In this document: positions 2,771 through 36,388 of the stretch, one piece after another
Numbering within the stretch: position 1 is the first letter of the stretch
Layout of the letters: each line of letters opens with the position of its first letter
DNA from: Pseudomonadota bacterium
GTDB lineage: Bacteria; Desulfobacterota; Desulfobulbia; Desulfobulbales; Desulfocapsaceae
DNA: 64,000 bases
Assembly (NCBI GenBank): GCA_018817385.1
Contig: JAHIUA010000098.1
Span: 62,001-126,000, forward strand
Direction of reading: 5' to 3'
Program-made: the position numbers and the translations under genes
Notes under the pieces: generated by a model
What the model saw: the letters and a program-made list of their open reading frames with translations, nothing else
The model's database searches: none
Told to the model about the DNA's origin: nothing

Positions 2771-3856
2771 TTATTTGTCTTTTTTGGCCTGTATGCTTCT
2801 CGGGACATAACTGCAGAAGGGTTCCTGGGCCAGGTAGTCGCCGGTCATGGCATAGGCCCGGGCCCGACAACCGCCGCAGACATTGACATATTCACAGGAG
2901 CCGCAGTTGTCCTTGTAGCCTTTAAAATCGCGCATCTCGTGAAAGAGGGAAGAATCTTCCCACACCTCTTTGAAGGACTGCTCCTTGAGGTTGCCGGCGG
3001 CTTTCGGAAAGTAGCTGCAGGGAAGGACGTTTTCATCCACGTCAATGAGGCAGATGAGCTGTCCTGCCAGGCAGCCCTTGGAGCCACCGGTGGAAAACTT
3101 GAGGTTGCGGCGCTTAAAGGTACTGTTTTCCTCTTTGGCCTTCTGGCGGACGATGCGGTAATAATGAGGGGCGCAGGTGGGGCGCATGAGGAGTTCATCC
3201 TCATTTTTCTCCATCTCGTAATGCCACTCCAGGATCTCGTCGTAGATCTTTTCTGGAATGAGCTCCTCCATGATGTCTTCACCCCGGCCTGTGGGCACGA
3301 TCATGAACATGTACCAGGCCGTGGCCCCAAGTTTTTTCACCAGGCGATAGATGTTCGGAATTTCTTCTCGGTTGCGGACGGTAAAAGAGGAGTTGATAAG
3401 AAAAGGGATACCATGCTCGTTGAAGAGCTTGATGGCATTCATGGTCCCGGCAAAGGCCCCTTCCTGATTGCGGAAGTTGTCGTGGGTCTCGGCCTTGGCC
3501 CCGTCGAGGCTGAGGGAGACCATCTTGATCCCGGCATCTTTTATATTCTCGCAGATGGCAGGGGTGACCAGGGTTCCGTTGGTGGCAAGGCACATCCGCA
3601 GTCCCTTTGAACCACCATATTTGGCAATATCAAAGACATCCTCGCGGAGCAGGGGTTCACCGCCGGAGAGCACCATAACCGGAGAGGCATATGAGGCAAT
3701 GTCGTCGATGATGCGTTTGGCCTCAGTGAAGGAAAAATCCGGATGGCCGGCAATGTCGAGCTCAGATGAGGAGCGACAGTGTACGCACTTGAGATTACAG
3801 CGCCGGGTGATTTCCCAGGCGATCCATTTTGGTTCGAATTCCATTTCTTTCTCCAT
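2771..3856 (-). CDS. ahbD: radical SAM/SPASM heme b synthase (AhbD-like)
   Basis: A 361-residue radical SAM protein. The N-terminal SAM/4Fe-4S motif CNLKCVHC lies near residue 20 after [18 protein letters not shown] follows. The C-terminal SPASM region has [17 protein letters not shown] and [19 protein letters not shown], enough cysteines for an auxiliary cluster. The [21 protein letters not shown] opening fits AhbD, which decarboxylates two propionates of Fe-coproporphyrin III to give heme b, better than AhbC, which has a longer N-terminal extension. Sulfate reducers use this route. It precedes hemE on the minus strand. The AhbC/AhbD distinction rests on remembered family features, not on an alignment. 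Confidence 0.8.
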
Positions 3857-3976
3857 AGGATTTAAAATAGGAAATGATAGTCGCCACTATATTGTCTTTT
3901 GCCGGAAGATGAAAGGCAAAAAGGGTGGCTTGGGGAATTGGTGAAGAATAAGCATAGGGTTTTATGAGTAAAAAAT

Positions 3977-24124: not shown

Positions 24125-24182
24125 AGTCTCGCCGCTACTGGGGGACAGCGAAGGGAACAGCGGTCCACCCTGGTTATTGTTG

Positions 24183-24615
24183 CAGAGGGGGAGTTTTGCC
24201 GGTGTTCCCCCGCTGTGTGTTGGAGCGGCTTCAGCCGCGAATGGGGGTGGCTGGGAGTTGGAGTTTCTGTTTCGGGTACCTGGGGAGTGCAGTTCGCGGC
24301 TGAAGCCGGCTCCCACTTGTTCCTTCCTCGGCTGCTGGTCTGGGGTTTTTCGTTGCGGGGTGGGGAAAGAGGGTTGTTTTGTCGGTGTTTTCCTGCTGTG
24401 TGTTGGAGCGGCTTCAGCCGCGAATGGTGGTGGCTGGGAGTTGGCGTTTCATTTTCGGGTACCTGGGGAGTGCAGTTCGCGGCTGAAGCCGGCTCCCACT
24501 TGTTCCTTCCTCGGTTGCTGGTCTGGGGTTTTTCAGTGCGGGGGAGGGAAAGAGGGTTGTCTTGCTTGTGTTCCCCTGCTGTGTGTTGGAGCGGCTTCAG
24601 CCGCGAATGGGGGTG
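24183..24615. repeat. 183-bp tandem REP/BIME units (about 2.3 copies)
   Basis: Three successive TTGGAGCGGCTTCAGCCGCG palindromes are spaced exactly 183 bases apart (TGGAGCGG at 24221, 24404, 24587). Each of the first two units also carries the inverted partner, TTCGCGGCTGAAGCCGGC, about 70 bases further on. Read on the minus strand these partners start GTGGGAGCC, fitting the GTRG head of REPs mobilised by RAYT transposases. The units are about 90 percent identical by eye. They sit directly upstream of the RAYT gene. Confidence 0.85.
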
Positions 24616-24708
24616 GGGGCTATGAGTTTCTTGTTCATGTACATGGAGAGTGTCGTTGGTGCCAGAATACTCTCCTGCAACCGTTTACAATTCATATTAA
24701 CTCATCTC

Positions 24709-25176
24709 ATGCCTGCTTTTCATAGTCGAGATCTGCGTAATGGACGCTATTCCCAGGAGGGGCACTACTATCTGTTAACGGCGGTCACCTTGCAGCGGCG
24801 ACCTGTTTTTAGCGATTTTACCGCCGCCAGGATCTGTATTAACTCCTTCCGTCTCCAGGATGAGGAGGGGGCTGTCCGCTCCTTGGCTTTTGTGGTGATG
24901 CCCGATCATTTTCATTGGTTGGTTGAGTTGCTGGAAAGCGATCTGGCCGCAGTAATGCGAGCTGTCAAGGGGCAGTCAGCGCGGCTGATCAACGCGTCTG
25001 TCGGCACATCAGGAACCCTCTGGCAGAGGGGCTATCATGACCGCGGCCTGCGCCAGGATCAGGATCTGGTGGCAGCGGCGCGATACCTGGTTGCCAATCC
25101 ACTCCGGGCGGCATTGGTAGAGAATCTCTGGTTGTATCCGCACTGGGATGCAGTGTGGGTGGAGGGTAAAGAGTAG
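24709..25176 (+). CDS. REP-associated tyrosine transposase (RAYT, Y1_Tnp)
   Basis: A 155-residue single-strand DNA transposase of the IS200/IS605-related RAYT group. The HUH motif is His67-Phe-His69 in VVMPDHFHWLVEL; a candidate catalytic Tyr is Tyr109 in RGYHDRGLRQDQDL; VANPLRAALVENLWLYPHWDAVW is the typical RAYT C-terminus. The ATG at 24709 gives the usual short N-terminus (MPAFHSRDLRNGRYSQEGHYYLLTAVTLQRRP in two pieces around GRY); the frame stays open upstream into the repeat. It is flanked on both sides by REP palindromes, its expected substrate. All motif residues look intact, so the enzyme may be active. Confidence 0.92.
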   Translation: MPAFHSRDLRNGRYSQEGHYYLLTAVTLQRRPVFSDFTAARICINSFRLQDEEGAVRSLAFVVMPDHFHWLVELLESDLAAVMRAVKGQSARLINASVGTSGTLWQRGYHDRGLRQDQDLVAAARYLVANPLRAALVENLWLYPHWDAVWVEGKE

Positions 25177-25197
25177 AGGGAGGAGGTTCCCACAGAT

Positions 25198-25415
25198 GTC
25201 TGTGTGAGTCGGCTTCAGCCGCGAAAGGAGGTGGCTGGGAGTTGGAGTTTTTGTTTCGGGTATCTGGGTATGCAGTTCGCGGCTGAAGCCGGCTCCTACT
25301 TTTTCATTCCTAGCTTGTAGATCTGGGGGGCTTTTCGGTGAGGGGTGGGAGCGGAGGGTTGTCTTACCGGTTCCCCGATGCCTGTTGGAGCGGCTTCAGC
25401 CGCGAATGGTGGTGG
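25198..25415. repeat. diverged REP/BIME unit downstream of the transposase
   Basis: CGGCTTCAGCCGCGAA recurs at about 25210 and 25392, again 182-183 bases apart, with the inverted partner TTCGCGGCTGAAGCCGGCTC at about 25275. This is a more diverged copy of the 183-bp unit found before the transposase gene. The distal end runs into the broken radical SAM gene. Confidence 0.75.
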
Positions 25416-25447
25416 CGTGGGGGGGCGAAGCTTCACTTTCAGTTTCC

Positions 25448-25768
25448 GTACTCTCCTTTTCGTGCCCCTCAACTTCCCCCTCTCTTCTCCGCCTGCTGCA
25501 TCCTGGCACACAAAAGAGCAAATAGTGTTGTCGAGGAATTCTTTTTTGCAGTCGATGTCCATGCTCAGGTTTTTGCGGTATTTCATGAAGCGGCAGCCGC
25601 CGAAGCAGAGGAGGAGGTAGAGGCAGGTGCGGCATTTTTCGTGGCTCTGCTCAGCGACTGGCAACCGCCATGGAAGCATAAAAGGGGAGGAGTTTCTCCA
25701 CCAGCTTCGGAGGGAGGCAGGATCTTATCGGGGTGGCTAAAGGTCTTGTGATAGGGAGAGAGGAACAT
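25448..25768 (-). pseudogene. remnant of a radical SAM/SPASM peptide maturase
   Basis: Two pieces of one gene survive on the minus strand. The 5' piece starts at ATG 25768, with AAGG five bases upstream, and reads MFLSPYHKTFSHPDK, like the N-terminus of peptide-modifying radical SAM enzymes. It then becomes unrecognisable. The 3' piece, in another frame from about 25660, has CRTCLYLLLCFGGCRFMKYR and then MDIDCKKEFLDNT, the C-terminal SPASM cysteine pattern. The roughly 300-residue SAM core is missing, and the 3' end runs into REP sequence. The enzyme cannot be functional. It lies just downstream of the 32-residue Cys-Cys peptide gene, its likely former substrate. End points are approximate. 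Confidence 0.7.
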
Positions 25769-25802
25769 GTCTACCTTGGCAGAGGGGGGCGCGAGGCCTG
25801 CT

Positions 25803-25822
25803 CCCCCCTCCGCAAGTGGGGG
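25803..25822 (-). terminator. hairpin between the peptide gene and the maturase remnant
   Basis: CCCCC-ACTT-GCG-GA-GGGGGG on the minus strand folds into a GC-rich hairpin directly after the TAA of the peptide gene. There is no U run, so it is more like an attenuating or RNA-stabilising stem, as often found between a precursor peptide gene and its maturation enzymes. Confidence 0.5.
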
Positions 25823-25921
25823 TTAACGGATTTTTGCTGGAGCGCCATCAGCGCAGCAGGTTGTGACTTTGGCCACCTCTTTGGCGGTGACCCCTTTGTT
25901 GACGATGACAATCTTCTTCAT
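25823..25921 (-). CDS. 32-residue Cys-Cys peptide, candidate RiPP precursor
   Basis: A small gene with a good ribosome site (AAAGGAG, seven bases before ATG). The peptide begins MKKIVIVNKG and ends TTCCADGAPAKIR, with a lysine/valine-rich leader-like first two thirds and adjacent cysteines at positions 22-23. It ends at TAA, followed at once by a GC hairpin and then by the remnant of a radical SAM/SPASM maturase on the same strand. The TonB-dependent receptor gene ends 99 bases upstream, with no obvious promoter between, so the three may have formed one transcript. Precursor function is inference from size, composition and neighbours. No named family is claimed. Confidence 0.6.
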   Translation of the reverse strand: MKKIVIVNKGVTAKEVAKVTTCCADGAPAKIR

Positions 25922-26020
25922 AACGCTCTCCTTTACTGAGGGTGGATGGATATCCTGGTCCTCTCCTTTGCAGGCAGGGTCAGGGGGAATCTGTTTCGCT
26001 GCTGGAGGCTTGCTGCATCC

Positions 26021-27922
26021 TTAAAAGAAGCACTTCAGGCCGGCCTCAAGCCAGCGGCCGTTGTTGGGTAACAGTTCATCCTGGTACTGGCTCTCGTTGC
26101 TGAGGTTGTGGCCGACCAGGAAGAGCTCGCTGCTCAGTTTTTCATTGGCCCAGATCTTCCTGCTGATGCTGAGGTCCCAGAGGAGGGTGCCGTCCACCGG
26201 ATTATAGGCGGGCGGGGCCTCCAGATCGCCGTAGCGGACATAGTGGCCGGACAGCTCGACGGTGAGGAGCTGCGGGTTATCGTAGAGGGCAATAAGGTTG
26301 GCAAAGCGTTTGTGACCATTTTCCCCCTCCTCATCTTCGGTGTGGATGTAGGTGAAGTTGAGCTCCAGGGAGAGATGATTCCAGGGCAGGGTGGAGATCT
26401 CCACCTCTATGCCCTTGCGGGACTCGTCACCGTTGTTGTCATAGGTGGCGAGGGCGGAGTTCCAGGAGAAGGCCTCGCTGACGTCGTTGTAGAAGAGGGT
26501 GGTCTTGAGGCGGCAAAAGCGGGTCACCCCGGTCTCCACCCCGGCCTGGTAGGAGATGACCTCTTCCGGTTGCAGCTCATCGTTGGCCCACCAGGCGCCG
26601 TTTTCCGTGTCCGTATAATAAACCGGGGGCTTGCGAAAGCCGCTGGCGATGGAGGCCCGGAAGAGGGTGTGTGGGGTGGCCAGCCAGGTGGTGCCGAGGC
26701 TGGGGCTGGTCATGGCGGAGGTGTCCGACATCTCGTCGTAGCGGAGTCCGGGGACCAGAGTGAGGTTGCCGAATTTGATGGTGTCGTTGGCATAGAGGCC
26801 GAGAAGCTCTTCATTGAGTTCAGCGGCCGGGGCCGGGGAGAGCTCATCGCTGCGCCTGATCTCGTTGCGCAGGTAGTCAAAGCCGGCCACCAGCTGGTGT
26901 CTGTCCAGGCGGTAGGCGAGGCGGCCGTTGACTCCGGTGGTCTCCTGCTCGTCCCGGTTCTGCCACCAGGGGAGGTCGCTGTCGAAATCGGTGTCGGTGA
27001 GGACGAAGCTGTTGTCGAGGAAATAGGTGTTGAGGTGGAGGTTGAGGCCGCTTGCGACCAGGGCGTCAAAGGAGGCGGAACCAAAGCTGCTGCGGTCATC
27101 GATAGACTCGTCAAAGTCAAAGCCGGGCAGGGTATAGTGGCCTGTCTGGTAGTCGGGGGCGGTGTAGCCGCCGCTCAGGGTGAGGGCCATGTTGGCCGGG
27201 AGGGCGATATCGAACTTCCCGTAGAGGCTGCTGCTGGCAAACTCCTTGGCGTCTTTGATCCCGTCCGACTCCTGCCTGGCGGCGGAGAGGTAGTAGCCCA
27301 GCGGGCCCACGGCCCCGGCCAGCTCGGCCGAGTAGTCCTGGCTGGCAAATTCCCCGTAGGAGCCGCGCAGGGAACCACTGGGTCGGCTGCTCTCGCCCGT
27401 GTCCTTGGTGATGATGTTGATCACCCCGCCCAGGGCCGAGCCCCAGGTAGAACTGGCCGCCCCCTTGATCACCTCGATGCGTTTGATGATGCGGATGGGC
27501 ACCATATTGGTCCAGGCCACGTCGTCGGTGGCCTTGGAGATGCGGATGCCGTCCAGGTAGACGACCACCTGCTGGATGGAGGAGTCGTGGATACCCAGAT
27601 AGGCGACGTTGTTGAAGTCTTTACTGGCGTAGTTGACAGAGACCCCGGCCACCCGGTTGAGGAGATCATCGAGCCCATGGGCGTTCATCCGTTCGATCTG
27701 GGCGGCGCTGATGATGGTCACGTTTTCGGGGACCTGTGAGAGGGGTTTGGGGGCCCGGCTGGCCGTCTCCACCTCCTGGCCGTCGGGGTAGTAGAGGGCC
27801 AGGAATTCGTCGCCGTCGTTTAACTCCGCCTTAGTTTCTTCCTCGGCCCAGGCAGAGGGCGACATGGTGAGGAGGAGGGCCAGGGAGAGGGTCATGGGTT
27901 TCATAGAGTGGGCGTTCTTCAA
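26021..27922 (-). CDS. TonB-dependent outer-membrane receptor
   Basis: A 633-residue receptor. The signal peptide ends SPSAWA near residue 26. The plug domain (about 60-175) has VPENVTIISAAQIERMNAHGLDDLLNRV and IEVIKGAASSTWGSALGGVINIITK; the rest is a 22-strand type beta-barrel ending in the outer-membrane signature EAGLKCFF with a terminal Phe. It resembles the BtuB/CirA group of siderophore or cobalamin receptors; the ligand is not determinable. TTG 27922 has GGAG nine bases upstream; ATG 27904 is the alternative. No exbBD, tonB or ABC importer genes are nearby. The Cys-Cys peptide gene follows on the same strand. Confidence 0.93.
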   Translation of the reverse strand: MKNAHSMKPMTLSLALLLTMSPSAWAEEETKAELNDGDEFLALYYPDGQEVETASRAPKPLSQVPENVTIISAAQIERMNAHGLDDLLNRVAGVSVNYASKDFNNVAYLGIHDSSIQQVVVYLDGIRISKATDDVAWTNMVPIRIIKRIEVIKGAASSTWGSALGGVINIITKDTGESSRPSGSLRGSYGEFASQDYSAELAGAVGPLGYYLSAARQESDGIKDAKEFASSSLYGKFDIALPANMALTLSGGYTAPDYQTGHYTLPGFDFDESIDDRSSFGSASFDALVASGLNLHLNTYFLDNSFVLTDTDFDSDLPWWQNRDEQETTGVNGRLAYRLDRHQLVAGFDYLRNEIRRSDELSPAPAAELNEELLGLYANDTIKFGNLTLVPGLRYDEMSDTSAMTSPSLGTTWLATPHTLFRASIASGFRKPPVYYTDTENGAWWANDELQPEEVISYQAGVETGVTRFCRLKTTLFYNDVSEAFSWNSALATYDNNGDESRKGIEVEISTLPWNHLSLELNFTYIHTEDEEGENGHKRFANLIALYDNPQLLTVELSGHYVRYGDLEAPPAYNPVDGTLLWDLSISRKIWANEKLSSELFLVGHNLSNESQYQDELLPNNGRWLEAGLKCFF

Positions 27923-28270: not shown

Positions 28271-29176
28271 ATGAGACAACGGCTCTTCCTCATCTTGCTT
28301 TTCTCTTTTCTCCTGCCGGGACAGGCCTGGTCCTTTGAGGTCCTGGTGCTCCAGTCTGGAGAGGCCCCTCCCTACGCACGAGCGGCCCAGGCATTCAGTG
28401 ACCTGCTCCTGCCGGCCCTGCCCAATCAAGGGGTCAAATCCATTGCCAATAATTCTCTCTGCACCTATACCATCGCCAAAGGCGAGAAACGCGCTGCTGT
28501 GGCCCGGCTTATTGATGAACAGTTGCCGGATCTGGTGGTGGCCATCGGTAAAAAGGCCCTCCAGGCCGCAGTCAGCAGCAAGAGACCTGTGGTCTACCTC
28601 CTCGTTCCCCAAGCCCAGGCCCTCCTCCCTGCCGGTCACCAGGCCACCGGGGTGCTCCTGGAAAACAGCCTCGGTCGCGAATTTGCCGAGATCCGCCGTC
28701 TCCTCCCCCACCTAAAGAGGGTGGGAGTGGTCTATGATCCTGAGCGATGTGAATCCCTGGTCTCTCAGGCAGTGGCGGCCCAGTCGGAACTGACCTTTAT
28801 CCGCAGGCCGATCACGAGTGGCAAGGAAGTGGTCGGGCAACTGGAGGGGCTCAAAGGTGAGATTGATCTCCTGTGGATGGTGCCGGACCTCACTGCTGTC
28901 TCGCCCCAGACGGAGCAGAGTTATTACCGTTTTTCTCTCCAGGAGCAGATCCCGCTCTTTAGTTTTTCTGAAATCCATCTGGCTCACGGAGCCACCCTGG
29001 CTACCACCTTTGACTGGCAAGAGATGGGAAAACAGGCTGCGATTCTGGCCCTGGATGTGCTCTCCGGAACCGCCCCCCAAGATATTCCTCCTCTCCAGCC
29101 GGAAAAGGTGCGCATCAGAGTCAATGTCAAGATCGCCGAGAAAATTAATCTTCAATTTGCCGTGCCTGTCAAATGA
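28271..29176 (+). CDS. periplasmic ABC-type substrate-binding protein (COG2984-like)
   Basis: A 301-residue exported protein. The signal peptide (MRQRLFLILLFSFLLPGQAWS) is followed by two Rossmann-like lobes typical of the uncharacterised ABC_sub_bind family (DLVVAIGKKALQAA, RVGVVYDPERCESLV, IDLLWMVPDLTAVSPQT). No permease or ATPase gene accompanies it. Its TGA overlaps the ATG of a membrane histidine kinase, so it probably serves as that kinase's periplasmic ligand sensor. The ligand is unknown. Confidence 0.85.
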   Translation: MRQRLFLILLFSFLLPGQAWSFEVLVLQSGEAPPYARAAQAFSDLLLPALPNQGVKSIANNSLCTYTIAKGEKRAAVARLIDEQLPDLVVAIGKKALQAAVSSKRPVVYLLVPQAQALLPAGHQATGVLLENSLGREFAEIRRLLPHLKRVGVVYDPERCESLVSQAVAAQSELTFIRRPITSGKEVVGQLEGLKGEIDLLWMVPDLTAVSPQTEQSYYRFSLQEQIPLFSFSEIHLAHGATLATTFDWQEMGKQAAILALDVLSGTAPQDIPPLQPEKVRIRVNVKIAEKINLQFAVPVK

Positions 29177-30954
29177 ATATACGTGCATTATTCAAAAGAA
29201 TTAAGGGAAGCTATAATACCAGGATACTGATAGTCTTTATCGGGGCCATGGTTGTTCTGGCCATTGGTCTCGACCTTCTCTTTATCAATATTCAACGCAA
29301 GACCTATACCGAGCAGACTCGCCGGAGTGGTCTGGCCATGGCAAGATTGCTGGCCCAGGCTATTCAGGTGGGCGTCTTTGCCGAAATGGCAAGTGTGATG
29401 AGTCCGGTGGTGGATTCACTCCTCCTCCAGGAGGATATCTTTCGGGTCCTGGTACTCAATGATAAGGATGAAGTTATCCTTGACAGGTGGAGCGATAAGA
29501 AGAGAGTGGCAGAAGAGGATGACTTCATCCTGCAGTTGGAGACTGTGCGCCGGGAAGGGAATAATTTTCTTGCCAGGGCCGATAGCTTTGTCTTTTGGTG
29601 GCCGGTGTTGAGCACTGTTTCCTACAGTGATGAGGAAGAAATGTATTTCTGGGATAAGGAGCCGCAGACAGAGGAGAAGAAACTTATCGGCTGGGTGGCT
29701 ATCTCGAGTTCCAAGGAACCGTTTGAGCGTGAGGTGCAGCAGCTCATCCTGCGCACAGGACTCCTGGTAACTGCTGTCCTTTCTCTTGCCATTTTATGTA
29801 CAGTGATTCTCCTCAACAAGATGATGCATCCCCTCAGGAATCTGGTCGCCAAGGTCGCCAGGAGTGGAGAGGGGAGTGAAGAGGCCTTTAGTGAAATCGG
29901 TCTCCTTGACACCACCTATTCCAATTTGTTGGAAAGTCTGGAACAATCTTTTGCCACCATCGAGGAACTGCGTCAGAATCTTGAAGAGAAGGTGGAGGTG
30001 CGGACCAGTGAACTCGCTTGCGCCAATGAGGACCTGGAAAAGAAAAAAGAAACGCTGAAGAAGAGTAATGTCAAACTGGAGAAGGCCCTGAAGAAGGTTC
30101 AGGAGACCCAGGCTCAGCTCATTCACTCCGAGAAGATGGCCGCTCTCGGCCAGCTGGTCGCTGGTGTGGCTCATGAGGTGAATAATAATATTAATTTTAT
30201 TGTCACTGCAGCTCCGGCCCTGGAGAATATTCTTAAGGGAATTCGTCGGATTACCGATGCCTATCATGAGGCGGGACTGCAGGAGACGGAGCAGGAGATG
30301 CTTGCCGCTCTGCAGCGGGCAGAGGCCCTGGGCGAGGAGTTGGGGATTGCTACCCTCTACAGCAATATCGATCTTGTTCTCGGCTCAATCCGTGAGGGCT
30401 GCCTGCGCAGTGTCAAAATAGTGCAGGAGCTTACCCTCTTTTCCCGTCAGGACGGCGACTGTCTGAATGCCTATGATATCAATGCCTCCCTCCTCTCTAC
30501 CTGGAAGTTTGTGGATACCAGATACAAGGGCAAAGTGGAGCTGGTGACAGAACTGGGTGCAATCCCTCAGGTCCTGTGTGCGGGAGGGAGGATGAGTCAG
30601 GTGTTTCTGAATGTGATGAATAACGGTGTCCAGGCAATTGGCGATGCAGGCGGCACATTGACCCTGACGACCTTTAGCGATAGAGAGATGATTCATATCC
30701 GTTTTGTTGATACCGGCCAGGGAATAGCCAGGGAAGACATGCCAAGGATCTTCGATCCTTTTTTCAGCACCAAAGAGGTGGGGCAGGGCACGGGCCTGGG
30801 ACTGGGCATATGTTATAAGATTATTGCCCAGCACCAAGGCAAGATCCGGGTGGAAAGTGCAGTGGGCAAAGGAACGGCCATCACCATCAGTATTCCCCTC
30901 TACCTGGACGACAAGGCCCGGCCCGAGTGCGAGTTGATCCTGGTTGCTCTCTAA
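29173..30954 (+). CDS. membrane sensor histidine kinase
   Basis: A 593-residue kinase. Transmembrane helices near residues 17-37 and 195-215 bracket a periplasmic sensor domain. A coiled coil (about 255-315, EELRQNLEEKVEVRTSELACANEDLE and on) leads to the H-box MAALGQLVAGVAHEVNN with phosphoacceptor His334. The ATPase domain has the N-box QVFLNVMNNGVQAIG, G1 FVDTGQGI and G2 GQGTGLGLGICYKI. No receiver or DNA-binding domain is fused and no response regulator follows. Translation is coupled (ATGA) to the upstream substrate-binding protein, which probably feeds it the signal. Confidence 0.93.
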   Translation: MNIRALFKRIKGSYNTRILIVFIGAMVVLAIGLDLLFINIQRKTYTEQTRRSGLAMARLLAQAIQVGVFAEMASVMSPVVDSLLLQEDIFRVLVLNDKDEVILDRWSDKKRVAEEDDFILQLETVRREGNNFLARADSFVFWWPVLSTVSYSDEEEMYFWDKEPQTEEKKLIGWVAISSSKEPFEREVQQLILRTGLLVTAVLSLAILCTVILLNKMMHPLRNLVAKVARSGEGSEEAFSEIGLLDTTYSNLLESLEQSFATIEELRQNLEEKVEVRTSELACANEDLEKKKETLKKSNVKLEKALKKVQETQAQLIHSEKMAALGQLVAGVAHEVNNNINFIVTAAPALENILKGIRRITDAYHEAGLQETEQEMLAALQRAEALGEELGIATLYSNIDLVLGSIREGCLRSVKIVQELTLFSRQDGDCLNAYDINASLLSTWKFVDTRYKGKVELVTELGAIPQVLCAGGRMSQVFLNVMNNGVQAIGDAGGTLTLTTFSDREMIHIRFVDTGQGIAREDMPRIFDPFFSTKEVGQGTGLGLGICYKIIAQHQGKIRVESAVGKGTAITISIPLYLDDKARPECELILVAL

Positions 30955-31989: not shown

Positions 31990-33282
31990 TTGATTCCGAT
32001 TATGCTTTCCGCAAGAAAATGCTTTTTCAGGACCTGTCCGCCGGCCCTCTTTTGTCTCCTGTTGTTTGCTGCCTGCAGTGAGATGGAAGCTCCGTTTGAA
32101 TGCACTGATCTCCTGGGCTGTGTCACTGTAGGTCCTGGGGAGGCGGTGAAGATCGGAGTCCTGCAGGCCTTGAGTGGTGAAATAGCGCCTCTTGGGCAGG
32201 CACAGATCAGAGGGCTTGAGTTGGCCCTGGCGGCAAGAGAGGAGAAAATTTCAGGGCACCCTGTTGCCCTCCATATTGAGGATACCGGCTGTACGGCAGA
32301 AGGCGGTGCCAATGCCGCCTTGGAAATAATCGCTGACCCGCAGACCTTGGCCATATTCGGCACCACCTGTTCCGGTGCGGCGGCCACAGCGGCAAAAGCC
32401 ATGTCAGATGCGGGCTTGACCATGATTTCCGGCAATAATTCGGCACCCTTTCTTACCTCTATCGGCGGCTATGCTGCTCCCGACTGGCAGCCTGGCTATT
32501 TCCGTACTGCCGGCAATGAGGAAAATGCCGGTAAGGTCGCAGCAGGCTATGTCTATGAGCAGCTTGGCCTGAACCGCGCAGCCACCATTAACGATAATGA
32601 TATTTATAGCAAGGGCTTGACTGAGAGTTTTAAAAATGCCTTTACAGAACTGGGCGGCACCATTGTCCTTGATACAGCAATTAACAAGGGCGATAGTGAA
32701 ATGGCCCCTGTGTTGACCGCTGTTGTCAACTCCCAGGCGGAATTGCTCTTTTTTCCCCTTTTTCAACCTGAAGGCAATCAAATCCTCCTCCAGGCCCGTC
32801 AGAATTCCGCCCTTGATGAGGTACTCCTGATCAGTGACGGGGCCCTGATTGAAGAGAGCTTTCTTGAGGCAGTGGCAGAGGTGGGCAAAGGGATGTGTTT
32901 TGTCGGACCGGCGCAGGCCGGAGGTCCAGCCGCGCAAGAACTGACCCGGGCCTATATTGCCAGGTATGAAGAAGAACCGACGGTCCGGTACTTCCTCAGT
33001 GGCTATGATGCGGCAGATCTTCTCCTTCATAGCATAGAGGCGGCTGCAGTTCGGGAGGCGGACGGAACCCTGCATATCGGCCGCAAAAAACTACGGGATA
33101 TCCTCTATGCCACCAGGGCATTCAAAGGGGTCACTGGTGTTTTAAACTGTGATCAGTTTGGTGATTGTGCCAAGTCTTCTTTTCATGTCTTGCGTCTGGA
33201 TGATCCGTCCCTGGGGCTCAGGGGACTGGAGGCAAACGTCGTCTTTCCGATACCTTTGCAGACCGGCAGCCTGAATCAATGA
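31990..33282 (+). CDS. lipoprotein substrate-binding protein of the branched-chain amino acid type
   Basis: A 430-residue type I periplasmic binding protein (Peripla_BP_6/LivJ fold). The lipobox LFAAC places the lipidated Cys near residue 29. The fold begins VKIGVLQALSGEIAPLGQAQ; ALEIIADPQTLAIFGTTCSGAAAT and SGYDAADLLLHSIEAA are typical. TTG 31990 is used because GGGAGG lies eight bases upstream; ATG 32002 is an alternative. No permease genes are nearby. It lies 13 bases before a large hybrid histidine kinase, suggesting it acts as ligand sensor for that kinase, mirroring the pair at 28.3-31.0 kb. Confidence 0.88.
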   Translation: MIPIMLSARKCFFRTCPPALFCLLLFAACSEMEAPFECTDLLGCVTVGPGEAVKIGVLQALSGEIAPLGQAQIRGLELALAAREEKISGHPVALHIEDTGCTAEGGANAALEIIADPQTLAIFGTTCSGAAATAAKAMSDAGLTMISGNNSAPFLTSIGGYAAPDWQPGYFRTAGNEENAGKVAAGYVYEQLGLNRAATINDNDIYSKGLTESFKNAFTELGGTIVLDTAINKGDSEMAPVLTAVVNSQAELLFFPLFQPEGNQILLQARQNSALDEVLLISDGALIEESFLEAVAEVGKGMCFVGPAQAGGPAAQELTRAYIARYEEEPTVRYFLSGYDAADLLLHSIEAAAVREADGTLHIGRKKLRDILYATRAFKGVTGVLNCDQFGDCAKSSFHVLRLDDPSLGLRGLEANVVFPIPLQTGSLNQ

Positions 33283-33295
33283 CAGGGCGGGACTC

Positions 33296-36200
33296 ATGAA
33301 TAGGCTCAAACAGCGGTGGAGCAGACTGAAAATCAGCAGGAAATTCAGAACTGCCTTTACCCTCTTGCTCTTTCTCATGCTCCTGATTGCGGCGACCGCC
33401 TACCTCTCCTATTTATCCATTCGCAGTGCCGAAGAGGATATCCGGAGAAGCAGCAAGATTGGTCAGGAAGTCCTGGAAATGGACCGGGGGATGGAGAGGG
33501 CACGCCGTCTGTTAGGTGACTTTTTTATGCACCATCAGACCATTGGTCTGCAAAAGGCCCACGAACAGTATGCCCAGCCATGCGTGCGCCAGATTGCCCA
33601 AGTCATATCGATCAGCTCTGAACTCAAAGAAAACCTCTTCGCCTCACCGTTCAGCAATGATTCAAGGATACAACAGATTGATGTCAATCTCTATCTGGCA
33701 TCTGCCAAACGTTTTGCCGACACCTCCATTGAGGCAGTGGAATTGATCTCAAAACGGGCAGCTCCGGAGAGAGGACTGGAAGGGCAAATGCAAGTCCTTG
33801 CCCGGCAAGTGGAGGAGGCGCTACAGGGAGTCCATGCCTTGCAGGATGCTTATCTCAAGGCCAATTCTTTTTGTCGGCAGTATCTCCTCAGCCGCCAGCG
33901 TTTTCATATGCAATCCGCTTTTAACAGTCTGGTCAGTCTGCGCTATGCCCTGGCCGACGAAGAAAGTCTCTCACCGCCAGAAAAAGAGAGGATCTTGACC
34001 CTCTTTGATTCCTGGTCTGGCCTGGCAGAAGAGCTCCTGGCAGTGGATCTGGAGCTTGCCGGCAAGAGACGGGATTTTTCTATCCAGGAGCAGATAGTGA
34101 CGCCAGTTTCCACCGCCCTGATTGAGGCCTCAAGGCTGGAAGAGATCCAGGCCAAACAGCATATTGATCGGGTTTATAGTCTGGCCAGTGTTATCATCCT
34201 CAGCATAGCCCTGCTTGCTGTCCTGACCATGCTCACAATTGCCAGGCTCCTGGACAATACGATCACCCGCAATCTCCTCAGCCTCACTGAATCGGCCCGT
34301 GAACTTGGCAAGGGGAATATGGATGTCAGGGCCAGGGAAGAGAGTGAGGACGAACTGGGCCAGCTGGCTCGTATTTTCAACAGCATGGCGGCTCATCTTA
34401 AAGACCTGGTGGAAAATCTGGAACGGAATGTGGCCCAGCGAACTGCGGAACTTTCTGAAAGCGAGGCCCGTTTCCGCCACATCGTCAGTGACCTGCCCAA
34501 GATTGCCGTCCAGGGCTATGATAGCCAGCGCAGGGTCATCTACTGGAATCGGGCCAGTGAGACCACGTACGGTTACTCTGCGGCCGAGGCAGGAGGAAAA
34601 AAACTGGAGGAGCTGATCATCCCGGAGTCCATGCAAGAGGAGGTCGTTTCGGCGATCCGCAACTGGTATGAAAATAATATCTCCATGTTGGCCTCAGAGC
34701 TCACCCTGCGCCATAAAGACGGCAGTGCTGTGACGGTCTATTCCAGCCATGTCATGCTGGTCAACAGTCAGGGTGAAAAAACAATGTACTGTGTTGATCT
34801 GGACCTGGCTGATCTGAAACGGGCCCAGGCAAAGGAACAGAAAAGTGAATCTTTTTACCGCCAACTCTTTGATCACTCCAGTAGTGGGGTTGCCGTCTTT
34901 GAAGCTGTTGCTGAGGGCCAGGATTTTATCTTTAAGGATTTAAACCATGCCGGTGAAGAGATAGAGGGGGTCAGCTGTGAGGAGGTCCTTGGACGCAGGC
35001 TGTCAGAGGTCTTACCCGATGTCGAAGCGTTTGGCCTACTGGATGTCTTCCGTCGAGTCTGGCAGACAGGGGAACCGAGTCATCACCCTGTCTCCTACTA
35101 TAAGGATGGCAAGATTGAGGGCTGGCGGGAAAATAAGGTCTACAAGCTGCCTTCAGGCGAGGTGGTCACCGTCTATGACGACATTACCAGCCAAAAACAG
35201 GTGGAAGAAGAAAAACTGGCCGTGGAAAAAAGCCTGCAATGGGCCAAGAAGATGGAGGCCATCGGTCTCATGGCCGGGGGCGTGGCCCATGATCTCAATA
35301 ATATTCTCTCCGGTATCATCGGCTATCCTGAACTGCTCCTGCTCCAACTGCCCGAGGAGAGTGAACTGCGGCCACCTATTAAGGCCATTCAGGAATCAGG
35401 GGAACGGGCGGCAATGGTGGTTGCCGATCTCCTCACCGTGGCCCGGGGTGTGGTCAGTACCAGGATAGCTGCCAGTCTCAACACCCTGGTTCGGGAATAT
35501 TTTGATTCTCCGGAGTGTCGGCAGCTCTACGCGCTCTACCCCCAGATTACCTGGCACCAGATTCTGGCTGATGAGCTGGCGGATATTTCCTGTTCACCGG
35601 TTCATATCAAAAAATGCATCATGAACCTGGTGACCAATGCTGCTGAAGCAATAGAGGGGGCGGGCAGTGTCACTCTGACGACCTCAAGTCGGGTCCCGGA
35701 CCTGCAGTGGGCGCGGGAAAATGGACTGGAGGAGGGGCACTATGTGGTCCTCTCCGTAACCGATACCGGCTCAGGCATTCCCCAAAAGAATATCGAGCAT
35801 ATTTTTGAACCTTTTTTCACCAAAAAGGTGATGGGCAGGAGTGGAACTGGCCTGGGCTTGGCAGTTGTCTGGAATACCGTACAGGAACATGTGGGGACTA
35901 TCATGGTCACCAGTAGTGACCAGGGGACCACCTTTGAACTGTTTTTTCCGGCCGTTGCTGGGGGGGTGGCCACTGAGGCGAAAGTGCCTGGGCAGAAGAG
36001 GCAGACAGGCTCTGGGGAAACAATTCTGGTGGTCGATGACGAGCCCCAGTTGCTTGATATCGCTGCCAGCATGCTAACGGTTCTCGGCTATGTTGTTGTC
36101 TGTGTCAGTTCGGGGGAAGAGGCAGTTGCCTATATGGAGGACCATGACGCAGATCTGCTCTTGCTTGATATGCTCATGGAGCCGGGTATCAACGGCCGTC

Positions 36201-36388
36201 AGACCTATGAGCAGATTCTCCAGTTGCATCCCGGCCAGAAAGCCATCGTCGTCAGTGGCTTTGCCGAAAATGAAGAGATCAAGGCAACCCTGCAACTCGG
36301 GGCCGCTGTCTTTGTCAAAAAACCCTATTCTATGGAAGAACTAGGCCAGGCCGTGCAAAAAGGCTTGAACAGCGAATTCCTTTCCTGA
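33296..36388 (+). CDS. hybrid sensor histidine kinase (HAMP-PAS-PAS-HK-REC)
   Basis: A 1030-residue membrane kinase. TM1 near residues 20-40 and TM2 near 298-320 bracket a long helical periplasmic domain. HAMP follows (about 322-380), then two PAS domains (about 395-505 and 520-635). The kinase core has His665 in GLMAGGVAHDLNNILSGI, an N-box IMNLVTNAAEAIEG and GRSGTGLGLAVVW. A C-terminal receiver (about 900-1025) has the acidic pair VVDDEP and phosphoacceptor Asp958 in LLLLDMLMEPG. The HDLNNILSGI H-box with a trailing REC suggests intramolecular phosphotransfer. The downstream target is unknown; the substrate-binding lipoprotein immediately upstream is its likely partner. Confidence 0.94.
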   Translation: MNRLKQRWSRLKISRKFRTAFTLLLFLMLLIAATAYLSYLSIRSAEEDIRRSSKIGQEVLEMDRGMERARRLLGDFFMHHQTIGLQKAHEQYAQPCVRQIAQVISISSELKENLFASPFSNDSRIQQIDVNLYLASAKRFADTSIEAVELISKRAAPERGLEGQMQVLARQVEEALQGVHALQDAYLKANSFCRQYLLSRQRFHMQSAFNSLVSLRYALADEESLSPPEKERILTLFDSWSGLAEELLAVDLELAGKRRDFSIQEQIVTPVSTALIEASRLEEIQAKQHIDRVYSLASVIILSIALLAVLTMLTIARLLDNTITRNLLSLTESARELGKGNMDVRAREESEDELGQLARIFNSMAAHLKDLVENLERNVAQRTAELSESEARFRHIVSDLPKIAVQGYDSQRRVIYWNRASETTYGYSAAEAGGKKLEELIIPESMQEEVVSAIRNWYENNISMLASELTLRHKDGSAVTVYSSHVMLVNSQGEKTMYCVDLDLADLKRAQAKEQKSESFYRQLFDHSSSGVAVFEAVAEGQDFIFKDLNHAGEEIEGVSCEEVLGRRLSEVLPDVEAFGLLDVFRRVWQTGEPSHHPVSYYKDGKIEGWRENKVYKLPSGEVVTVYDDITSQKQVEEEKLAVEKSLQWAKKMEAIGLMAGGVAHDLNNILSGIIGYPELLLLQLPEESELRPPIKAIQESGERAAMVVADLLTVARGVVSTRIAASLNTLVREYFDSPECRQLYALYPQITWHQILADELADISCSPVHIKKCIMNLVTNAAEAIEGAGSVTLTTSSRVPDLQWARENGLEEGHYVVLSVTDTGSGIPQKNIEHIFEPFFTKKVMGRSGTGLGLAVVWNTVQEHVGTIMVTSSDQGTTFELFFPAVAGGVATEAKVPGQKRQTGSGETILVVDDEPQLLDIAASMLTVLGYVVVCVSSGEEAVAYMEDHDADLLLLDMLMEPGINGRQTYEQILQLHPGQKAIVVSGFAENEEIKATLQLGAAVFVKKPYSMEELGQAVQKGLNSEFLS

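Follow-up and report, generated by a model that had tools for sequence, protein, structure and literature searches.

A decayed geopeptide locus in a Desulfocapsaceae genome and a putative make-import-sense cassette in its intact relatives

Methanobactin (MbnA, MbnB/C, MbnT) is a ribosomally synthesized and post-translationally modified peptide (RiPP) of Gram-negative bacteria whose dedicated TonB transporter is encoded by the precursor and biosynthesis genes, and uptake-coupled regulation has been proposed for it (PMC3621798). Pyrroloquinoline quinone (PQQ) is also peptide derived, is made with the radical S-adenosylmethionine (SAM)/SPASM enzyme PqqE, and enters by TonB uptake through PqqU, many of its importers being non-producers (PMC12124388). 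Geopeptides are a RiPP family named in NCBIfam (precursor TIGR04229, maturase TIGR04280), where the maturase family is graded only as a hypothetical equivalog. We describe here a geopeptide locus in a 64,000-nucleotide stretch of a Desulfocapsaceae genome (assembly GCA_018817385.1, contig JAHIUA010000098.1, positions 62,001 to 126,000), hereafter the window. It holds an intact TonB-dependent receptor gene, a precursor gene with paired cysteines (CC), a conserved hairpin, a maturase gene destroyed by several deletions, and an intact gene pair for a solute-binding protein (SBP) and a sensor kinase, and no substitute maturase is encoded in its genome (5.38 Mb, 100% complete). We read the locus, with a probability of about 0.68, as a decayed geopeptide cassette whose intact relatives make, re-import, and sense a modified peptide. 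The local locus is a relic, and its interest lies in the conserved, putative make-import-sense cassette of an uncharacterised RiPP family that it exposes.

Transcription on the minus strand runs from the receptor through the precursor and the hairpin to the remnants of the SPASM maturase, and nucleotide identity to the corresponding locus of the same-genus genome G018 is 83 to 85%. About 18 N-terminal codons (from 25768) of the maturase are kept, with two middle scraps and a C-terminal SPASM piece (25494-25649) that corresponds to residues 375-426 of the G018 maturase at 81% identity. A first-pass annotation of this DNA had recognized SPASM remnants but counted only two out-of-frame pieces; there are more, separated by at least three deletions, and the stop codon is lost. 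Its verdict on the enzyme holds, since the radical SAM CxxxCxxC region is absent, and with the cluster site gone the maturase is dead. It was also right that repetitive extragenic palindromic (REP) sequence lies at the 3′ end, where the C-terminal frame continues into REP-like repeats. These repeats (GGAGCGGCTTCAGCCGCGAA...) are dense over window positions 24150-25450 and flank an IS200-like Y1 transposase gene (24709-25176, PF01797), an arrangement of the type seen with REP-associated tyrosine transposases (RAYT).

The C-terminal remnant matches TIGR04280, “geopeptide radical SAM maturase,” with 43.9 bits, under the cut-off of 400 bits. The intact G018 ortholog scores 454.7 bits and a Desulfuromonadales maturase 646 bits, and because the orthologous gene passes the model, the window gene can be placed among the geopeptide maturases as a dead member. 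Maturases above the cut-off numbered 14 in the 56 relatives searched. An AlphaFold2 model of an intact relative's maturase (predicted local distance difference test score [pLDDT], 89) has a strand-strand-strand-helix-helix-helix N-terminus (residues 7-80, pLDDT about 90 or more) resembling PqqD and the RiPP recognition element (RRE); this domain is lost in the window. The best structural matches of the model are 5wgg and 5why, a thioether-bond-forming enzyme, and Cys-based thioether chemistry is for that reason the leading guess, though only a guess, for what geopeptide maturases may do. An unrelated, intact radical SAM/SPASM enzyme is encoded elsewhere in the window (2777-3886, minus strand) and is too distant from geopeptide maturases to substitute for one.

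The window precursor, MKKIVIVNKGVTAKEVAKVTTCCADGAPAKIR, has 32 residues. Its gene starts exactly 99 bases past the receptor stop, as had been reported, with AAAGGAGAG preceding the ATG as a ribosome site, and, in the geopeptide layout and as at 37 other loci, this short CC precursor directly precedes the maturase (25823-25921 against a maturase start at 25768). It is 74% identical to the precursors of G018 and G002, both of which adjoin a maturase, and the two closest relatives show no disruption of the peptide frame. No TIGR04229 match, and none to any other NCBIfam or Pfam precursor model, was obtained for it. TIGR04229 is a narrow model of 22 positions that matches 7 of the 43 precursors collected at an E value of 0.01 or less, among which a Desulfuromonadales precursor at the same type of cassette scores 32.7 bits (cut-off, 30). 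Across the 43 precursors CC is invariant and Gly10 nearly so, and no other core residue is conserved. In part of the searches candidates were filtered for CC, which makes its invariance partly circular; the IVVLDxG motif upstream of it was unselected, and an unfiltered peptide search returned the same peptides in the same position, just upstream of many maturases.

A precursor gene separates receptor from maturase in 38 of the 39 loci that are intact or nearly so; L083 is the sole locus where none was found, in the 824 bp of upstream DNA available. Some loci carry inserted genes (by sequence reading, an MFS-like transporter in L072, a PIN-like pair in L058, and a methyltransferase-like gene in L098), and the peptide remains near the receptor in all three. 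The hairpin noted after the precursor stop is real and has a counterpart in nearly all related loci. In the window the spacer (25769-25822) folds with −29.8 kcal/mol (z, −2.6), and z falls below −2 in 27 of 32 other loci (mean, −3.5), with a T-run after many of them. It likely causes partial termination, by which more precursor than enzyme would be made.

The receptor is complete, as first annotated, with both Plug (E, 7e-20) and beta-barrel (E, 3.5e-32) Pfam domains; its true start is probably an ATG near 27904, and its closest solved structures are of BtuB. It shares 81 to 82% identity with the geopeptide-adjacent receptors of G018 and G002 and 71% with that of G008. These receptors contain no stops and are under purifying selection, with pairwise ratios of nonsynonymous to synonymous substitution rates (dN/dS) of 0.08 to 0.33. 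Control by a BtuB-like riboswitch was considered and rejected: the window and five geopeptide loci gave no Rfam match except a tRNA-Sec, whose gene stands in the flank of one locus (L079, 14396-14489, minus strand). A four-genome alignment of the intergenic region between receptor and SBP showed conserved blocks but no clear operator.

Intact loci with the same receptor-peptide-maturase order and a conserved CC, which the first-pass annotation had looked to for support, recur throughout the order and also among Nitrospirota and Desulfuromonadales relatives. Homologous CC peptides adjoin SPASM maturases in dozens of related genomes, so that neither of the two conditions named as refuting that annotation, a lack of such neighbours or a peptide frame broken in close relatives, is borne out. 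Scanning of named genomes yielded 27 further loci of the clade, from Desulfobulbaceae, Desulfurivibrionaceae, Desulfobacteraceae, Desulfuromonadales, and Nitrospirota. Among 146 genomes of the order, 42 carry both a geopeptide-type receptor and a maturase, 7 the receptor only, 2 the maturase only, and 95 neither (Fisher P = 9e-27, a value that overstates independence because genomes of one order are related). The fixed geometry is unaffected by this: where both genes share a contig and strand, the receptor lies upstream, mostly with a gap of 217 to 430 bp and within 1.5 kb in 42 of 43 cases; in Desulfuromonadales loci it is divergent instead. Within the genus, the receptor is confined to the four genomes where the cassette survives, whole or as remains. 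The receptor, or the entire cassette, is duplicated in tandem in L210, L211, G059, G076, G084, and G103. Chance adjacency of receptor and SPASM gene was examined at 53 distant SPASM control loci, 42 of them with enough upstream DNA, and discarded; a TonB receptor lay within 3 kb at five, and all five are the Omnitrophota/Auribacterota form of the same cassette described below.

The SBP and kinase genes stand on the opposite strand and overlap by 4 bases (Table 1). They escaped the first-pass annotation, as did the geopeptide family name and the wider loss of maturases with the receiving genes kept. Among 121 proteins encoded beside geopeptide loci, 28 are ABC_sub_bind and 23 HATPase_c proteins, exceeding any other family, and local profile searches placed the pair at 31 loci. 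Most loci without it are cut by contig ends; in L058 the pair lies at another place on the contig, and L068 lacks both genes. In three Nitrospirota loci (L082, L087, and L089) the two genes follow the maturase and share its strand, which indicates that its linkage to the cassette survives rearrangement. No ABC (ATP-binding cassette) permease or ATPase recurs among the geopeptide-locus neighbours, and the SBP therefore looks like a sensor component. Its AlphaFold2 model (mean pLDDT, 90) predicts a type I binding-protein fold, closest to 3lkv, 3lft (tryptophan), and 6hnj. A second pair, of a Peripla_BP_6 SBP and a hybrid histidine kinase, follows at window positions 31990-36385, so that two SBP-kinase pairs stand in a row.

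Table 1. Features of the geopeptide locus, with positions counted from the first letter of the window
Feature	Position	Strand	Remarks
Maturase C-terminal SPASM remnant	25494..25649	−	TIGR04280, E 1.6e-11
Maturase middle scrap, codons FHGGCQSLS	about 25649-25675	−	FHGGCQSVS in the G018 maturase
Maturase middle scrap, codons LVEKLLPF	about 25681-25706	−	LVQELLPF in the G018 maturase
Maturase N-terminus remnant (MFLSPYHKTFSHPDKILP)	25715..25768	−	Matches MLLSRYHRTFKHPDDPASL of the G018 maturase
GC-rich hairpin	25775..25816	−	Lies after the precursor stop and before the maturase start; probably a partial terminator/attenuator
Geopeptide-type precursor	25823..25921	−	32 aa; CC at residues 22-23
TonB-dependent receptor	26021..27922	−	Intact; 633 aa by longest open reading frame
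ABC_sub_bind-type SBP, periplasmic	28271..29176	+	Divergent from receptor; PF04392, E 5.2e-22
Membrane sensor histidine kinase	29173..30954	+	HATPase_c, E 7e-23

The distant version of the cassette came up only through the SPASM controls. In four Omnitrophota and one Auribacterota loci (L100, L102, L103, L107, and L108) the order is TonB receptor, SBP_bac_5 protein, CC peptide, and SPASM maturase, followed in L100, L103, and L108 by an MsbA/type-I-like ABC exporter and in L100, L103, and L107 by a dCache sensor kinase; L100 also has an AraC-type response regulator. Against TIGR04280, two of these maturases reach 253 and 290 bits, short of the cut-off, and two of the precursors, such as MEIIKLGTEDVLEMAVLSCCWPPGTRSNTSPEPE, match no NCBIfam model. 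The SBP_bac_5 protein is closest to the oligopeptide-binding AppA. An unrelated SBP of peptide type thus fills the same place, with an exporter added, and this is the best evidence that the ligand would be the peptide product itself.

In the window the maturase is destroyed while the receptor, precursor, SBP, and kinase remain intact, and two or three other lineages appear from their sequences to have lost the maturase independently while keeping the receiving half. In G008 the first precursor codons are fused to maturase residue about 298, and receptor, SBP, and kinase are retained. G099, from another family, has receptor, precursor, hairpin, SBP, and kinase, and no maturase was found at the locus or by a search of the genome, which is 92% complete. 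The first of two tandem copies in G103 holds only a maturase fragment beside an intact neighbour copy. Such a pattern is what cheating or eavesdropping on a diffusible product would leave, though slow decay may also account for it. With its producer dead and its receiver kept, the window strain would respond at most to the product of others, or is losing the whole cassette.

For the intact relatives we infer the following circuit from gene content and predicted folds. The N-terminal strand of the precursor (IVVLDxG) would bind the RRE domain at the maturase N-terminus, and the SPASM enzyme would then modify the CC core, most likely with a thioether-type bond through cysteine, while the hairpin would keep expression of the maturase below that of the precursor. 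The trimmed product would exit the cell and be recaptured through the TonB receptor, to be bound in the periplasm by the SBP and reported to the kinase, which may tune the geopeptide locus. Uptake of this kind is plausible because PqqU and the methanobactin transporters show that peptide-derived products are imported by TonB receptors; its coupling to a kinase would be new. The first-pass annotation was right in its observations and largely so in its interpretation, and its suggestion that the receptor may recover the product is retained here as a proposal.

Several observations weigh against this circuit. The Desulfobacterota loci have neither a linked exporter nor a linked leader peptidase. 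Receptor-SBP-kinase modules that lack the peptide also exist as paralogs (L187, L195, L203, and L206), one of them in the genome of the window itself (L187, contig C27, 6347-12220), where TonB receptor, ABC_sub_bind protein, and hybrid kinase stand without CC peptide or maturase; the module can thus serve other ligands. In the window, retention of the receiving genes could be a lag in decay: receptor dN/dS on the window branch is about 0.39 against 0.27 and 0.19 (hand arithmetic from pairwise values), and the precursor has changed around its core, with 12 nonsynonymous differences to each relative. As constraint is a little weaker here than in G018 and G002 and the changes surround the core, the precursor is likely drifting after loss of the maturase.

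Two narrower versions of this reading differ in what the product is for. It may be a metallophore, the CC product binding metal outside the cell, the receptor importing the complex, and the SBP and kinase sensing the loaded product and regulating supply. Paired cysteines suit such a role, as do the Omnitrophota SBP_bac_5 proteins, which resemble binders of peptides and nickel; metal complexes are the main cargo of TonB receptors, and methanobactin sets a precedent as a RiPP with its own TonB transporter and uptake-coupled regulation (PMC3621798). Only CC is conserved in the core, however, the neighbours include no recurrent metal transporter, metal regulator, or riboswitch, and the cassette lacks an inner-membrane ABC importer; we place this possibility somewhat short of even odds.

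In LuxPQ, the genes for a soluble periplasmic SBP and a membrane kinase are neighbours, and no transporter accompanies them. The geopeptide product could similarly be a cell-cell signal, a pheromone that enters the periplasm by a TonB-dependent route and is detected by the SBP and kinase. The orphan SBP beside a sensor kinase at 31 loci, with no ABC permease or ATPase, speaks for this, as do the response regulator in L100 and the several lineages whose maker is gone and whose receiver is still there; the occurrence of similar modules without any peptide speaks against it, and we hold the pheromone reading to be rather unlikely. Equally doubtful is the broader proposal that geopeptides form a widespread Gram-negative signalling system served by two unrelated SBP families, in which some lineages, that of the window included, are listeners only.

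It is less likely again that receptor, SBP, and kinase sense an unrelated nutrient while the modified peptide, perhaps a redox or regulatory factor, does its work within the cell as part of the same physiology. The peptide-less paralogs in the same genomes, the missing exporter in Desulfobacterota, and the small molecules, such as tryptophan, bound by fold relatives of the SBP all point that way. Within the genus, however, the receptor is missing wherever the cassette is missing, and the Omnitrophota version pairs an unrelated oligopeptide-type SBP with an ABC exporter. The first-pass annotation had left the window peptide as either an orphan or modified in trans by another maturase; its frame, ribosome site, and CC are intact, but a 100%-complete genome with no second TIGR04280 enzyme, the next best radical SAM proteins reaching at most 55 bits against the 400 required, makes trans modification very improbable and orphan the better description. 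That the maturase is really intact and was lost in assembly at the REP-like repeats beside its 3′ end, near which the G018 and G002 contigs also end, is scarcely credible, given remnants split by at least three different internal deletions, a lost stop, and a separate deletion at the same locus in G008, a two-contig assembly.

A decayed cassette whose intact relatives make, re-import, and sense a modified peptide remains our reading, and it can be set against the systems already described. For geopeptides, TIGR04280, and PF04392 modules we found no specific papers among the open-licence ones searched, and the five-gene circuit may be described elsewhere. Methanobactin differs in using MbnB/MbnC and, in some cases, FecIR-type sigma signalling where this cassette has a SPASM enzyme, a histidine kinase, and an ABC_sub_bind protein; the MbnB/MbnC type is absent from the 25 commonest families among the 121 neighbour proteins. 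PQQ is a redox cofactor, and PqqU comes without an SBP-kinase pair; the window receptor reaches 41.2 of 1200 bits on the PqqU model (NF041535) and 153.6 of 599.7 bits on the BtuB model (TIGR01779). The SCIFF (5wgg/5why) and PapB-type ranthipeptide maturases are the closest solved relatives by structure and sequence and share short, Cys-rich precursors and an N-terminal RRE-like fold, but the G018 ortholog falls below both family cut-offs (96.7 of 425 bits for SCIFF and 122.4 of 340 for PapB). The likeness to LuxPQ is a functional analogy only, between different protein families, and here a TonB receptor and a RiPP are added. With the geopeptide family the locus shares a same-genus maturase that passes the model, a CC precursor directly upstream, and a Desulfuromonadales precursor that passes TIGR04229; it departs from it in that its own maturase is a remnant and its own precursor goes undetected, and the family names do not extend to a linked receptor, hairpin, or SBP-kinase pair. 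The window is thus a dead geopeptide member, not a methanobactin, PqqU, or BtuB system. Should the repeated loss of maturases beside retained receiving genes hold up, it would parallel, for a RiPP, the cheating known from siderophores, or eavesdropping, among sulfur- and metal-cycling anaerobes, and the conserved receptor, SBP, and kinase give an orphan family that has a name but no assigned function a circuit open to testing.

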